Of a DNA stretch of 64,000 bases, positions 8,507 to 14,238 are shown in pieces (the stretch's first letter is position 1; each line of letters opens with the position of its first letter). Both the position numbers and the translations under genes were made by a program. The stretch is taken from positions 62,001 through 126,000 of the forward strand of contig JAISBB010000005.1 of NCBI GenBank assembly GCA_031266415.1, in the 5' to 3' direction. The notes beneath the pieces are model-generated. The model saw only the letters and a list, made by a program, of their open reading frames with translations, had not been told where the DNA came from and did not search any database. The DNA comes from Oscillospiraceae bacterium (GTDB lineage: Bacteria > Bacillota > Clostridia > Oscillospirales > Ruminococcaceae).

Positions 8507-10477
8507 CTACTCCCTCATTTCTAATTTTTTAATTAAATTTCTCAACTCATTTTCAAGCACAATTTTTACTCCCAATTGCTCCGCTTTTTTCAATTTACTT
8601 CCCGGGTTCTCTCCAACCAAAAGGCAATTGGTTTTTTTTGAAATTGTATCTGAAACATTAATCCCCAATCCCTGCAATCTCTCCACTAACTTATGCCTAC
8701 TTATGCCCTCAAAAGAACCGGTAATCACAAAAGTTTCCCCGGTTTCTTTGACTTCTTGTGACTGCACTACTTTTGTTTGCACCCCTGCAATTTTTAAACG
8801 ATGAATACATGTTTTCGTCTCTTGCAATTTAAAATAATTTGCCAATGAATCTGCCGAGGTCACACCTATGCCACGAATCTCACATATTTCATCCATTGTC
8901 ACACCAAACAAATTATCCACACTACCGAAATACCTAATTATATCTTTAGATGTTTTTTCTCCAATGTTTTTAATCCCTAATCCAAACAATAATCGCGCCG
9001 GTCCACTTCCTTTCGATTTTTCGATAGATTTTAAAATATTTTGAATAGATTTTTCTGCAAGGCCGTCAATTGAAGCAAAATCTTGCTCCTCCAAGTAATA
9101 AATATCCGCAAACACAACAATCACTTTTTGCTCTATTAGTTTTTTAATAATGCTTGGCCCCAACCCCTCAATATTCATTGCATCCCGCGAAACAAAGTGC
9201 GTTAACTTCCTGAACTTTACATCTGGGCACAACACATTCTGACAAATCAAACCCCCTTCTTCTGCAAACAGTTTTTCCCCGCAAGAAGGACAATTTGAAG
9301 GGATTTCAAAATATTCACCAGAAGGAACAACTGCCTCCATAATTTCCGGAATCACGTCTCCCGCTTTTCGAACGCGAATTAAACTTCCAATATTAATCTT
9401 CTTCTTCTTTATGAAATCTTGATTATGCAAAACGGCACGACTAACAACGCTCCCCGAAATAAAAACTGGATCAAAAATCGCAATTGGGGTTAATGCACCA
9501 GTTCTGCCAACACTTACTTTAATATCGCGAATTGTTGTTTGAACCTCTTGCGGCGTATACTTGAAAGCAACCGCCCACTTAGGGTATTTTGAAGTCCTCC
9601 CCAACTCTCTTCGATACCCAAGGTCATCCACTTTTACAACTGCCCCATCTATATTAAAACTCCTGACTTCTTGTTTAATTCTTTCAATTTGCGCGGCAAT
9701 TTCCCCGTTACTTTTGAACAAACCATAAACATCAACTGTATTAAATCCCAAATTTTTTAAAAACTCTATTGATTCTTTGTGGCTCTCAAACCTCGTAGTT
9801 GTAATCTGCTGAAGATTAAAAATCAAAATATCCAAATTACGCTCTTTTGTGATTTGGGGGTCCTTTTGGCGCAACGAGCCAGCTGCTGCATTTCTTGCAT
9901 TTTTAAAACAGATTCGCTGACTTTCTCGCTGCACATTAATCAATTGCTCAAAAACCAAATTGGGCATAAAAACCTCACCGCGAACAACTAAATTCTCAAT
10001 TTTTTGCGCCAATGTTTGCGGTACAGTTTTTATCATTCGTATGTTTTGTGTAACATCTTCGCCAACAAAACCATTCCCCCTTGTTGCTGCCCTAACCAAC
10101 ACCCCATTTTTATACTCCAAAGCAACAGAAAGACCATCTATCTTCGGTTCCACAACAAACAAAACTTGATTATTAAATTTTTCACGCACTTTGTCACAAA
10201 ATGCAAAAACACTCTCCAAATTAAAAACATCTTGCAAACTGTCCATTTGAACACCGTGGCGAACTTTATTTATGTGCAAACTTGCATTTCCACCGACAAC
10301 AACCGAAGGCGACTGAGTATCAATTAATTCCGGGTACTGTGCTTCTAGACTTTTCAACTTGTGCATCAATGCATCATATTCGCCATCTGTAATTTTCGGC
10401 GCATCTAAAACATAATAGAAGTGATTGTGTTTTTTAAGCTCTTCTCTTAATTTTAAAATTTCAATTTCAACGTCCAT
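8507..10477 (-). CDS. ligA: NAD-dependent DNA ligase LigA
   Basis: LigA seals nicks in replication and repair using NAD+. Domains in order are: Ia NAD-binding region (NHFYYVLDAPKITDGEYDALM), the adenylation domain with the catalytic lysine in VEPKIDGLS (about residue 110), an OB fold, a four-cysteine zinc finger (CPSCGEKL...CQNVLCPD), helix-hairpin-helix repeats (LFGLGIKNIGEKT; IRGIGVTSADSL) and a C-terminal BRCT domain (TFVITGSFEGISRHKL). It is full length. The ORF track starts at a TTG 10 codons upstream, but the ATG at 10477 has a better AAAGGA site, matches the family N-terminus and removes an overlap with the racemase gene, so I prefer it. Confidence 0.96.
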   Translation of the reverse strand: MDVEIEILKLREELKKHNHFYYVLDAPKITDGEYDALMHKLKSLEAQYPELIDTQSPSVVVGGNASLHINKVRHGVQMDSLQDVFNLESVFAFCDKVREKFNNQVLFVVEPKIDGLSVALEYKNGVLVRAATRGNGFVGEDVTQNIRMIKTVPQTLAQKIENLVVRGEVFMPNLVFEQLINVQRESQRICFKNARNAAAGSLRQKDPQITKERNLDILIFNLQQITTTRFESHKESIEFLKNLGFNTVDVYGLFKSNGEIAAQIERIKQEVRSFNIDGAVVKVDDLGYRRELGRTSKYPKWAVAFKYTPQEVQTTIRDIKVSVGRTGALTPIAIFDPVFISGSVVSRAVLHNQDFIKKKKINIGSLIRVRKAGDVIPEIMEAVVPSGEYFEIPSNCPSCGEKLFAEEGGLICQNVLCPDVKFRKLTHFVSRDAMNIEGLGPSIIKKLIEQKVIVVFADIYYLEEQDFASIDGLAEKSIQNILKSIEKSKGSGPARLLFGLGIKNIGEKTSKDIIRYFGSVDNLFGVTMDEICEIRGIGVTSADSLANYFKLQETKTCIHRLKIAGVQTKVVQSQEVKETGETFVITGSFEGISRHKLVERLQGLGINVSDTISKKTNCLLVGENPGSKLKKAEQLGVKIVLENELRNLIKKLEMRE

Positions 10478-10484
10478 ATTTATG

Positions 10485-11186
10485 TTATTCCTTTGTTTTC
10501 TTGCCAAAATATTTAATCACGAATCTTGCCAAAACGTCCATCGGGTCTAAAAATCTTTCGTCAAGCGAAAACCATTCTTTCAAAATCGAAAGTTCTGTAC
10601 AACCAAGAACTATTTTCTCACAACCTGCACCAAATAAATCATCAACAACTTCAAAAAAAGTGGTTTCTTTCGGCATTTTACCCGCTTTCACACTAGCATA
10701 TATTATCTCCATAACTTTTTCTTGCTGTTTCGCATCTGGCACACAACATGTTAGCCCAACCTCCGCAAACGCCGTTTGAAATAAACCAACTGAAATTGTT
10801 CCAGTTGTTGCCATAATCCCCACTTTCCCAATTTCCGCATCTTTTAAACTTTTGACAGTTTCTTTTTGAAAATGTACAATTGGAGTTGAAATTTGGGCAA
10901 TCAACTGATTATAAAAATAGTGAGATGTGTTGCAAGGAATCGCAATTAAACTTGCACCTGCCTTTTCTAAAATGCGGCAGCAATTCAAAAGTTCTTTAAA
11001 AGGATTTTCTTGACTTTTCCCTGAAATAAATTCAGTCCTATCTGGGGTTTTTGCATTACTAAGCACCATCATATTAATATGTTCTTGATCTATTTTAGCA
11101 TCGGTTAACTCTGTAATTCTTTTCATAAAATAAACAGTTGCTAATGGCCCAATTCCACCAACAATTCCCAAAAAATCCTTTAACAT
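10485..11186 (-). CDS. racD: Aspartate/glutamate racemase family protein, probable aspartate racemase
   Basis: This is a PLP-independent racemase of the Asp/Glu/hydantoin family. It has IVGGIGPLATVYFMKRI at the N-terminus and both catalytic cysteines: the first in IPCNTSHYF (about residue 83), the second in VLGCTELSIL (about 194). The GGxGP(L)AT opening and TSHY context are typical of aspartate rather than glutamate racemases. Its start ATG overlaps the stop of the upstream ATP-grasp ligase (TGATG), so the two are translationally coupled. The pairing supports production of D-aspartate for that ligase, as in lactic acid bacteria that place D-Asp in the peptidoglycan cross-bridge. The symbol reflects that inferred role. 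Confidence 0.85.
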   Translation of the reverse strand: MLKDFLGIVGGIGPLATVYFMKRITELTDAKIDQEHINMMVLSNAKTPDRTEFISGKSQENPFKELLNCCRILEKAGASLIAIPCNTSHYFYNQLIAQISTPIVHFQKETVKSLKDAEIGKVGIMATTGTISVGLFQTAFAEVGLTCCVPDAKQQEKVMEIIYASVKAGKMPKETTFFEVVDDLFGAGCEKIVLGCTELSILKEWFSLDERFLDPMDVLARFVIKYFGKKTKE

Positions 11187-12388
11187 CAAACCTTACCTTC
11201 CCAACCTCTTTTAAACCAATAACGCCCAGAAATTCTTGCATTTTGCAAAAATCTAAAAAAATTCCTATCTTTTTTATAAGATAACGTAGAACAAAATCTG
11301 TCACCTGCCACAAGTTTCTTAATTTTGCCCTTGTAATATTCATTCACGTTCTTCATCAGCAACTTTTTTGGAAGCCCCAACCAAAGATGTTCTGTATTGG
11401 AAATTTCAATTGAAAGTGGTTCTTCTAAAATCCAGTCTTTAACCAAATATTTTGCCAAATTAAATCCACTGCCAGTAACAAAAAAACTGCTTCTGCCTTG
11501 CCGCAAATTAATCTCAAAAAATTTAAATTTGCCGTCTCTTGAATCAAATTTCATATCAAAATTGGCAAACCCCATATAACCAAGGGATTCCAAAAACAAC
11601 TTAACCTTTTCGCAAATTTCGGGTTGATATTCGTTAATTATTGCTAAATAATTCCCAACTGTTTGTGGAGCTTTATCTTCAAGTAGTACCTGCCCCAAAC
11701 ACATTAACTTTACCTTGCTATCTTTCCCAACATAACAATTCAACACCCTCATAGTGTCATCTGTACCCGTAATCATTTCTTGAACAACCAAATCTCCATC
11801 ATAAGCAGATTTATATATACACTCTATTGTATGGGTTAAATCAGCTTTACTTTCAATAAAAAATGTTTTCTTCTGCCCCACAAACTTACATCGAGTATAT
11901 TTTGCACTATCATCAGCTTTTAACACCACAGGGAATGCAAACGGCAACTCTACATTTATTTCTTTTTTTGTTATAATATGAGTTATAGGGTAGTCTAGAC
12001 CAAATTGCTCACAGGCCTTATAAAAATTTAATTTTGTTGCTAATTTTGTAAACAATTCCTCCGAAACGCACGAAACAACAAACCGTTTTTCTAAAATCTT
12101 TTTATTTTTCACCACAAACTCCACATAATTGTCACCACAAGCAACAAGCAACAACTTCGAAAATTTTTTATGATATTCTTCATATATAACATTCAAATTT
12201 TCTAAAAAAGATTGCTGGGTTCCAAAATCAGCAAATATCCTAACCTCTACAATCGAAGAATGCCGTGTTGGAATCAAGCTAAACTCACCTAGTGCCAAAC
12301 TCTTTACTCCATATTCTTCGTGAAACGCACGAGCCATCCCATAAGCATTTAGATCTGTTCCCAGTAAAATCGGTAGAAATTTTCCCAA
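11186..12388 (-). CDS. ATP-grasp carboxylate-amine ligase, probable D-aspartate ligase (AslA/Aslfm type)
   Basis: This protein of about 400 residues has an N-terminal pre-ATP-grasp domain (PILLGTDLNAYGMARAFHE) and an ATP-grasp core: ATP-binding lysine in FPVVLKADDSAKY (about residue 175), VVQEMITGTDDTMRV, and metal-ligand motif FEINLRQGRSSFF (about 310), then a helical C-terminus. D-aspartate ligases Aslfm (Enterococcus faecium) and AslA (Lactococcus lactis) belong to this superfamily, have this size and add D-Asp to the lysine side chain of peptidoglycan precursors. Neighbours are an aspartate racemase downstream and an asparagine synthetase-like gene upstream, which together match the L. 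lactis cross-bridge set. The substrate is inferred from context. The TTG at 12388 follows AGAGGTGA by 5 bases; the track start at 12397 lies inside that site. Confidence 0.7.
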   Translation of the reverse strand: MGKFLPILLGTDLNAYGMARAFHEEYGVKSLALGEFSLIPTRHSSIVEVRIFADFGTQQSFLENLNVIYEEYHKKFSKLLLVACGDNYVEFVVKNKKILEKRFVVSCVSEELFTKLATKLNFYKACEQFGLDYPITHIITKKEINVELPFAFPVVLKADDSAKYTRCKFVGQKKTFFIESKADLTHTIECIYKSAYDGDLVVQEMITGTDDTMRVLNCYVGKDSKVKLMCLGQVLLEDKAPQTVGNYLAIINEYQPEICEKVKLFLESLGYMGFANFDMKFDSRDGKFKFFEINLRQGRSSFFVTGSGFNLAKYLVKDWILEEPLSIEISNTEHLWLGLPKKLLMKNVNEYYKGKIKKLVAGDRFCSTLSYKKDRNFFRFLQNARISGRYWFKRGWEGKV

Positions 12389-12393
12389 GTGAG

Positions 12394-14238
12394 TCACCTC
12401 TTAATGAAATACTGGTCATACCAAACTAAAAACGAATATATAGTCCATATTTTTCTGGCATTGTTGCTTTTTCCAGTGTAATGATCTTCTAATAGTTTCA
12501 AGATCTTGCTGTTTTCAAAGAACTGAGTAGCAACCCTGCTAACAAAAAAATCCTTCACTTGCTCATAGAAAACTTTGTCTCTCAACCAATTTGCAATTGG
12601 CACTGGGAACCCTTTTTTTGGCCTGGTTGCCCAAGTACTTGGTAATTTCCTCAGTGATGCCTCACGCAATACGTATTTAGAAACCCCTCTTCTTACCTTA
12701 AATTTGCTGGGGATCTCACTTGCCACTTTAAGAACCTCTATATCTAAAAACGGTGTTCGCAACTCAACTGAATGCGCCATACTCATTTTATCTGCCTTAA
12801 GCAAAATATCATTTGGTAACCACAAATTCAAATCAAGATATATTTTTTGGGTAAGCAGATCATTGCCTTCGGTTTGTACATAATATTTATTTGTTAAATC
12901 TGTAGCCAAAAATTCGAAATCATAACCAGCTCGAAGTAACGCTGTTGACTCTTTTTCTGTAAATATATACGCCTGCCCTATAAAATCTTCTTGCTCAGTT
13001 TTGGCTCCCCTAATCAGTTTTGTTTTCACAGTTCCCTTCAAAACTAATTCCGCAAATTTTGCCAACAAATTTCTTAAGCATTGAGGAACCAACCTTCGAT
13101 ACCAGCGCATCTTCCGTGGCACTAAATACGCTTCATAGCCACCAAAAAGTTCGTCTGCACCCTCACCAGAAAGCACCACCTTAACGTGTTGCGAAATCAA
13201 TTTAGTTAAAAAAAATAACGGCAAAACAGAAGGGTTAGCGCTCGGTTCATCCAAATGATATTGAATGTCCCCAAATTTTTCAAAACACTCTTGCGGTTCC
13301 ACATACTCAATGTATATTTTCGAACCAATTAAACTTGCCAATTCTTTCGCATACCCAGTTTCATCAAAATTTACATCTCTAAACCCCACTGAAAACATGC
13401 TTTGCGACTGCGCCTCCGCCGCAATATAACTGCTGTCTACTCCACCAGAAACAGCTACTCCAATTGGCACATCACTCACTTTATGCATCTGCACAGAATC
13501 TTTTATTGCCTTCCTGACTTTTTCAACAGCTATTCTTTTATTCACACCCTTTTCTGAAAAAATATGATTAAAATAAGCCTTAGTTGTCAACTTCCCAGCC
13601 TGCCAAACAAGATAGGTCCCTGGTAATAGCTTAAATACTCCCTTAAAAAAAGTTTCATTTGTTACAGGATACTGAAAAGTCATATATGGTTTGATTGCTT
13701 TTTCGTTCATTTTTTTTTTAAACAAAGGGCACGGCAAAAACCCTTTAATTTCTGATCCAAACAAAAGTTCTGCATCTCTTGTTAGGTAATAATAAAGTGG
13801 CTTAATTCCAAAAATATCTCTCACCAAAAGTAGTTTCTTTTCTTTGCGGTCCCAAATGGCTAAGCCAAACATCCCTCGTAATTTTGGAAATAACTCTTCT
13901 TTAAATTCCTCATAGCCATGAATTAAAACTTCTGAATCTGTTTGGCTTCTAAATTTATGACCCAAGACAATTAAATGATCCTTTAATTCTTGGAAATTAT
14001 ATATCTCACCGTTAAACACTAACACAATTGAACCATCTTCATTTAACATCGGTTGGTCGCCATTTGTACTAACGTCAATAATGCGCAACCGCCTAAACCC
14101 CACAGCAAATTCCGAATCACAAAAAAAACCTTCGCCATCTGGCCCTCTGTGAGAAATCTCGTGCAGCATCTTGCCCAAAATCATTTTTTGTTCCTCTAGA
14201 TTATAAAGGTCCCCCGTAAACCCAACAAATCCACACAC
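12394..14238 (-). CDS. asnB: Glutamine-dependent asparagine synthetase (AsnB family; possibly AsnH-like D-Asp amidase)
   Basis: The 614-residue protein has the class II glutamine amidotransferase domain with Cys2 as N-terminal nucleophile after the GTG start (MCGFVGFTG), then HRGPDGEGF and FNGEIYNFQEL. The synthetase domain carries the PP-loop VAVSGGVDSSYIAA (about residue 265), SGEGADELFGGYEAY and the C-terminal MSMAHSVELRTPFLD. Both domains are complete. It either makes free asparagine from aspartate or, given the racemase and D-Asp ligase directly downstream (4-base overlap at the track start), amidates D-Asp on peptidoglycan precursors as AsnH does in L. lactis. The sequence alone does not separate these. 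AAGGAGA lies 6 bases before the start. Confidence 0.9.
   Translation of the reverse strand: MCGFVGFTGDLYNLEEQKMILGKMLHEISHRGPDGEGFFCDSEFAVGFRRLRIIDVSTNGDQPMLNEDGSIVLVFNGEIYNFQELKDHLIVLGHKFRSQTDSEVLIHGYEEFKEELFPKLRGMFGLAIWDRKEKKLLLVRDIFGIKPLYYYLTRDAELLFGSEIKGFLPCPLFKKKMNEKAIKPYMTFQYPVTNETFFKGVFKLLPGTYLVWQAGKLTTKAYFNHIFSEKGVNKRIAVEKVRKAIKDSVQMHKVSDVPIGVAVSGGVDSSYIAAEAQSQSMFSVGFRDVNFDETGYAKELASLIGSKIYIEYVEPQECFEKFGDIQYHLDEPSANPSVLPLFFLTKLISQHVKVVLSGEGADELFGGYEAYLVPRKMRWYRRLVPQCLRNLLAKFAELVLKGTVKTKLIRGAKTEQEDFIGQAYIFTEKESTALLRAGYDFEFLATDLTNKYYVQTEGNDLLTQKIYLDLNLWLPNDILLKADKMSMAHSVELRTPFLDIEVLKVASEIPSKFKVRRGVSKYVLREASLRKLPSTWATRPKKGFPVPIANWLRDKVFYEQVKDFFVSRVATQFFENSKILKLLEDHYTGKSNNARKIWTIYSFLVWYDQYFIKR

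Follow-up and report, generated by a model that had tools for sequence, protein, structure and literature searches.

A probable asnH-aslA-racD operon for D-aspartate side chains of peptidoglycan in an Oscillospiraceae bacterium with a reduced genome

Genes at the locus

The window analysed in this study, a stretch of 64,000 nucleotides from contig JAISBB010000005.1 of an Oscillospiraceae bacterium (assembly GCA_031266415.1), carries three consecutive genes on the minus strand that, judged by both identity and role, very probably form an asnH-aslA-racD operon for a D-aspartate (D-Asp) or D-isoasparagine (D-isoAsn) side chain in peptidoglycan. The first gene (12394..14238) encodes a glutamine-dependent amidotransferase of the AsnB/AsnH type with 614 amino acids (TIGR01536, PF13537, PF00733). 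It is followed by a gene (11186..12397) for a putative D-aspartate ligase of the Asl family of ATP-grasp enzymes (403 amino acids), assigned by a profile from Bacilli, by homology and by an AlphaFold2 (AF2) model. The final gene (10485..11189) encodes a candidate aspartate racemase of the RacD type, independent of pyridoxal phosphate, with 234 amino acids (TIGR00035, PF01177). The original prediction had described these genes as standing in a row with overlapping or nearly overlapping ends, and the open reading frame list together with the family assignments confirmed this, since both the asnB/ligase and the ligase/racemase junction show an overlap of 4 bp. Downstream, the racemase gene shares 23 bp with ligA (8507-10507); on the other side, asnB is closely preceded by nusB.

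Each of the three genes is present once in the genome of 736,233 bp, which is 97.8% complete. All four genomes of the genus keep them together in this order, and in a sister genus with small genomes (G129, G216) they are likewise located between nusB and ligA, so that a chance grouping can be dismissed. The low ratios of nonsynonymous to synonymous substitutions of the three genes (dN/dS of 0.04-0.13 by NG86 and 0.05-0.21 by YN00) indicate that the cassette is maintained by purifying selection.

Identity of the three gene products

The general family models say little about the ligase, for which Pfam gave no match and TIGR/NCBIfam an ATP-grasp match below threshold only. Its identity was settled by homology, gene context and a custom hidden Markov model (HMM) built from 45 D-Asp ligases of Bacilli only. 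With this HMM the ligase was the sole match in the genome (E=1.6e-155), while Ddl and the other ATP-grasp proteins of the genome remained unmatched. The ligase was also placed inside the D-Asp ligase family tree, so that the comparison proposed beforehand, with Asl and with other ATP-grasp families, came out on the side of Asl. When named genomes were searched with the family alignment, ligases with 42-47% identity over the full length (about 380 amino acids) were found. They belong chiefly to Lactococcus, Enterococcus, Vagococcus, Pediococcus, Lactobacillus and Lysinibacillus, with Planomicrobium, Viridibacillus and others in the same range of identity. Walls of the L-Lys-D-Asp type are also known from non-lactic genera among these. 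For lactic acid bacteria such walls have been described (PMC4155827). The best reading of these data is that the protein is a peptidoglycan D-aspartate ligase, predicted to add D-Asp to an amine of the stem peptide.

The AF2 model of the ligase (pLDDT 90.6) shows an ATP-grasp fold, and Foldseek aligned it with a probability of 1.00 to ATP-grasp enzymes such as PurK, PylC and biotin carboxylase (E down to 1e-15). PylC is instructive as an enzyme that works alike: it joins the carboxylate of D-ornithine to the epsilon-amine of L-lysine, but it uses free lysine as acceptor and, at about 15% identity, is not a member of the family. A generic fold, best structural matches (PurK, PylC, L-amino acid ligase) at just 12-16% identity and the missing Pfam match would also suit an unrelated ATP-grasp ligase for dipeptides or natural products within a small biosynthetic cluster. 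We regard this as very improbable indeed, given the 42-47% full-length identity to ligases encoded beside racD or asnH in bacteria with D-Asp walls, and given a cassette flanked by nusB, ligA and gatCAB in which transporter and tailoring genes are absent.

The amidotransferase exceeds the cut-off of TIGR01536 by far (489 bits, cut-off 267) and begins with MCGF, i.e. with the N-terminal cysteine nucleophile. A profile from AsnB proteins of Bacilli only recognised it with E=2e-238. AsnB-like proteins are known in different roles. Some produce asparagine, AsnB1 of L. plantarum, encoded beside murE, amidates meso-diaminopimelate (meso-DAP), while AsnH amidates D-Asp (PMC4155827). In a careful tree of 49 rows, the AsnB from the window groups with ligase-adjacent AsnB proteins of Lactococcus, Enterococcus and Lactobacillus, although the tree is not fully resolved at its backbone near the ligase-linked groups and one free copy (from G073) falls among them. 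Placement with the murE-linked or free AsnB proteins was rejected by the approximately unbiased (AU) test (p=0.017). We therefore consider it improbable that this protein is a plain asparagine synthetase, or a meso-DAP amidase like AsnB1, which merely adjoins the ligase gene. Such a role would agree with its NCBIfam name (asparagine synthase), with its being the only member of its family in the genome and with the frequent occurrence of AsnB proteins of this superfamily in relatives that have no ligase; the grouping in the tree and the joint inheritance of the three genes in two genera argue against it. The AsnB is predicted to amidate the alpha-carboxyl group of the added D-Asp.

For the racemase, TIGR00035 (asp_race) gave 212 bits at a cut-off of 93. 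The catalytic residues Cys86 and Cys197 are kept, as they are in all 27 ligase-linked racemases from Bacilli, and a profile of Bacilli racemases only recognised the protein with 4e-69, against 4e-5 for MurI. However, it passes the model of the cysteate racemase CuyB as well (208, cut-off 190), which the Lactococcus RacD misses (166) and the ligase-linked racemase of L. curvatus narrowly misses (185). Since both cut-offs are passed, the assignment to D-Asp rests on the context and not on the model; a RacD-type aspartate racemase with aspartate as predicted substrate is the best reading. A function as substitute for MurI was rejected, as MurI is present beside ddl.

Comparison with known systems and distribution

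The asnH-aslA-racD genes of Lactococcus lactis/cremoris (L. cremoris, L233) represent the same three families in the same order and on the same strand as in the window. The literature places racD and aslA in a single operon, with AsnH amidating D-Asp once it has been attached (PMC4155827). The identity of the Lactococcus proteins to the best query used is 44% for the ligase, 49% for AsnB and 46% for the racemase. Unlike Lactococcus, the host of the window is a member of the Clostridia with a 736-kb genome that lacks DAP and lysine synthesis and has a MurE of the DNPR type. Aslfm of Enterococcus faecium belongs to the same ligase family, as judged via the ligases of E. villorum and E. avium (42-43%), whereas the acceptor in our case is putative. 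Two-gene versions, compared to the three genes of the window, occur in plasmid records of Lactobacillus crispatus, where the ligase adjoins asnB, and of Latilactobacillus curvatus, where it adjoins the racemase. AsnB1 and AsnB of L. plantarum and Listeria are members of the same amidotransferase superfamily which also act on peptidoglycan precursors, where they amidate meso-DAP (PMC4155827; PMC8554201); asnB1 of L. plantarum lies beside murE, and the AsnB from the window belongs to the ligase-linked set instead. Altogether, the RacD, D-Asp ligase and AsnH-type set named in the original prediction is borne out by profiles, gene order and the AsnB tree.

The linkage of the genes was followed in 80 ligase loci, picked by ligase sequence alone and searched for partners within about 5 kb. 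A racemase was found at 52 and asnB at 39 of them, and at least one of the two at 64. Of 17 relatives from the order of the window, 14 have asnB near the ligase and 10 have the racemase there. The cross-bridge had been supposed to be unusual in a genome of this kind. This has to be amended, since a survey of the family detected a ligase match in 72 of 398 genomes, about 66 of them strong (about 17% of the family) and often with partner genes, which makes the cassette a recurrent trait of these Clostridia and not a single exception. The genus of the window forms, in the ligase tree, a long branch of unsure position, which would fit vertical descent or a transfer into the small-genome lineage alike. 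Each genome of another genus, g55 (G262, G358, G397, G429), encodes two different D-Asp ligase homologues with 34-35% identity to that of the window.

The enzymology of this system is already known, and what is new is a member in a new host. An operon for a cross-bridge as in lactic acid bacteria is now placed in gut Clostridia of mostly unstudied wall chemistry. In a review from 2024, genera of the Ruminococcaceae/Oscillospiraceae are tabulated as mesoDAP (Faecalibacterium) or without data (PMC11382707), and a search of the open-access literature brought up nothing on D-Asp bridges for this clade. In L. lactis, the amidation of D-Asp in the bridge affects the sensitivity to lysozyme and hydrolases (PMC4155827).

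Proposed pathway

From the families of the three enzymes the following reactions may be inferred. RacD would convert L-Asp to D-Asp, whose beta-carboxyl group would be activated with ATP by the ATP-grasp ligase and joined to the third residue of the stem peptide at its free side-chain amine. The AsnH-type enzyme would then amidate the alpha-carboxyl group of the attached D-Asp to give D-isoAsn, and a transpeptidase would link the amine of D-Asp or D-isoAsn to D-Ala4 of a neighbouring strand. MurB, MurC-F, MraY, MurG, Ddl, MurI, FtsW and a penicillin-binding protein of the FtsI type are encoded in the genome, among them the Mur enzymes which provide the substrate of the ligase. That the bacterium builds a D-Asp or D-isoAsn cross-bridge, as was proposed, stays the best reading of the cassette; as acceptor of the bridge, both lysine and meso-DAP come into question.

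The third residue of the stem peptide

The genome encodes a single MurE with the DAP-type motif DNPR. Despite its completeness of 97.8%, the genes lysC, asd, dapA, dapB, dapF and lysA are absent from it, and the sister genus (G129) has no lysC, asd, dapA, dapB or dapF either. Among 100 relatives dapF is present in 79, dapB in 82 and lysA in 87, and the genus of the window has none of the three. Consequently the genome can make neither DAP nor lysine, and one or the other must be imported. The DAP-type wall assumed in the original prediction thus agrees with the motif of MurE, but not with the biosynthetic capacity of the cell. The type of MurE, which had been put forward as a check with a clearly DAP-specific enzyme counting against the bridge, is DAP-specific by motif, and yet this motif is compatible with more than one substrate. 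An arginine at its fourth position leaves lysine possible, because a Thermotoga MurE deposited as L/D-lysine ligase carries DDPR and because the A409R variant of S. aureus MurE retained the addition of lysine (PMC3829189). We slightly favour L-Lys, obtained from the host, as the third residue. The D-Asp ligases that have been characterised use L-Lys stems as acceptors (PMC4155827), and an import of lysine is needed for translation in any case, which is not true for DAP.

Several points weigh against a D-Asp bridge on lysine. A Lys-type MurE motif, without Arg in DNPx, would be expected for an L-Lys-D-Asp (A4alpha) wall; the motif found is DNPR. All four genomes of the genus combine it with Arg389 and Glu468 (E. 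coli numbering). The MurE of the sister genus is also DNPR, which brings the motif to five genomes of two genera; had DAP gone out of use, one would expect this Arg to have drifted. In the S. aureus A409R variant, the Km for lysine was greatly increased (PMC3829189). Ligase-bearing relatives often possess only an R-motif MurE together with DAP genes (e.g. G034, G044 and G083). Furthermore, no protein of the window genome matched Alr (Ala_racemase_N) or Aminotran_4, though Ddl and MurF are present, so D-Ala may be imported, and DAP perhaps too. Regarding the bridge itself, the addition of D-Asp and the formation of the bridge are predictions from gene content. A search of the PDB returned no solved D-Asp ligase structure for comparison and no close sequence match.

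The conserved MurE residues, the signs that other wall residues are scavenged too and the several relatives that pair a ligase with an R-motif MurE alone and DAP genes would suit a second explanation for the same cassette, in which meso-DAP is scavenged, either from the gut or from bacteria that a host protist has digested, and the ligase attaches D-Asp to its free amine, giving an mDAP-D-isoAsn bridge. We take this as a serious alternative whose chance lies somewhat below even. The action of characterised ligases on L-Lys stems and the dispensability of DAP for translation speak against it, and no DAP transporter was identified, without a systematic search for one. A lysine riboswitch occurs in 12 of the 21 genomes searched but in none of the genus, and no homologue of E. 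coli LysP was found in the window genome. Amino acids could be transported by two membrane proteins, an NhaC-like one and a permease of the APC type, with no model assigning lysine to them. In the sister genus (G129) two Alr-like proteins were detected, one of them with 713 amino acids.

Taking lysine as the third residue, we tentatively suggest a switch in wall chemistry, to which we would give somewhat less than an even chance. An ancestor with a DAP wall and the D-Asp cassette would have lost DAP synthesis on turning into an intracellular parasite; its unconverted DNPR MurE would now load lysine from the host, and the D-isoAsn bridge would serve a lysine stem. The alternative, a D-isoAsn bridge on scavenged meso-DAP, would likewise be new. 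The retention of the operon, with DAP and lysine synthesis gone, leads to a testable prediction on a DAP-type MurE deprived of its own substrate.

Host lifestyle and related loci

Outside the window, an ATP/ADP translocase of the TLC family is encoded at G000:C4:209736-211310 (E=8e-157). This translocase and a genome of 736 kb are marks of the energy-parasite Clostridia described by Takahashi in 2023, which are known from protists of the termite gut and from the guts of other animals (PMC10579323), and the bacterium is likely an intracellular energy parasite, as judged from these two features. The main text of that study is silent on DAP, lysine and aspartate (PMC10579323).

Several ligase-bearing relatives encode an additional MurE, whose motif is not of the DAP type, at or near the cassette. 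It directly follows the racemase in G080 (DNPG), is located at or near the cassette in G073 (EDSG) and G089 (DDPQ), lies 10 kb away from it in G013 (DNPG) and adjoins an asnB in G039 (DNPA). In Vagococcus and Pediococcus the order is asnB-murE-ligase-racD with the MurE motif DDPG. Such a non-DAP MurE beside the cassette ties the latter to the chemistry of the stem peptide. In G080, asnB, ligase, racemase and the DNPG-type MurE2 form one block (L064:7337-12560) and the genome has a DNPR MurE in addition; possibly, two stem chemistries exist in one cell. In seven further genomes (G011, G015, G021, G023, G028, G055 and G057) a MurE with the motif DNNR (or DSNR) adjoins asnB, with or without a D-Asp ligase cassette, and this is likely a pair for the amidation of meso-DAP resembling murE-asnB1 of L. 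plantarum. Homologues of the D-Asp ligase with 32-45% identity were also detected in four unannotated records labelled as phage (LT985590, OR847535, OR848680 and MT835538), which are either bacterial contigs under a wrong label or cases of wall genes carried by phages.

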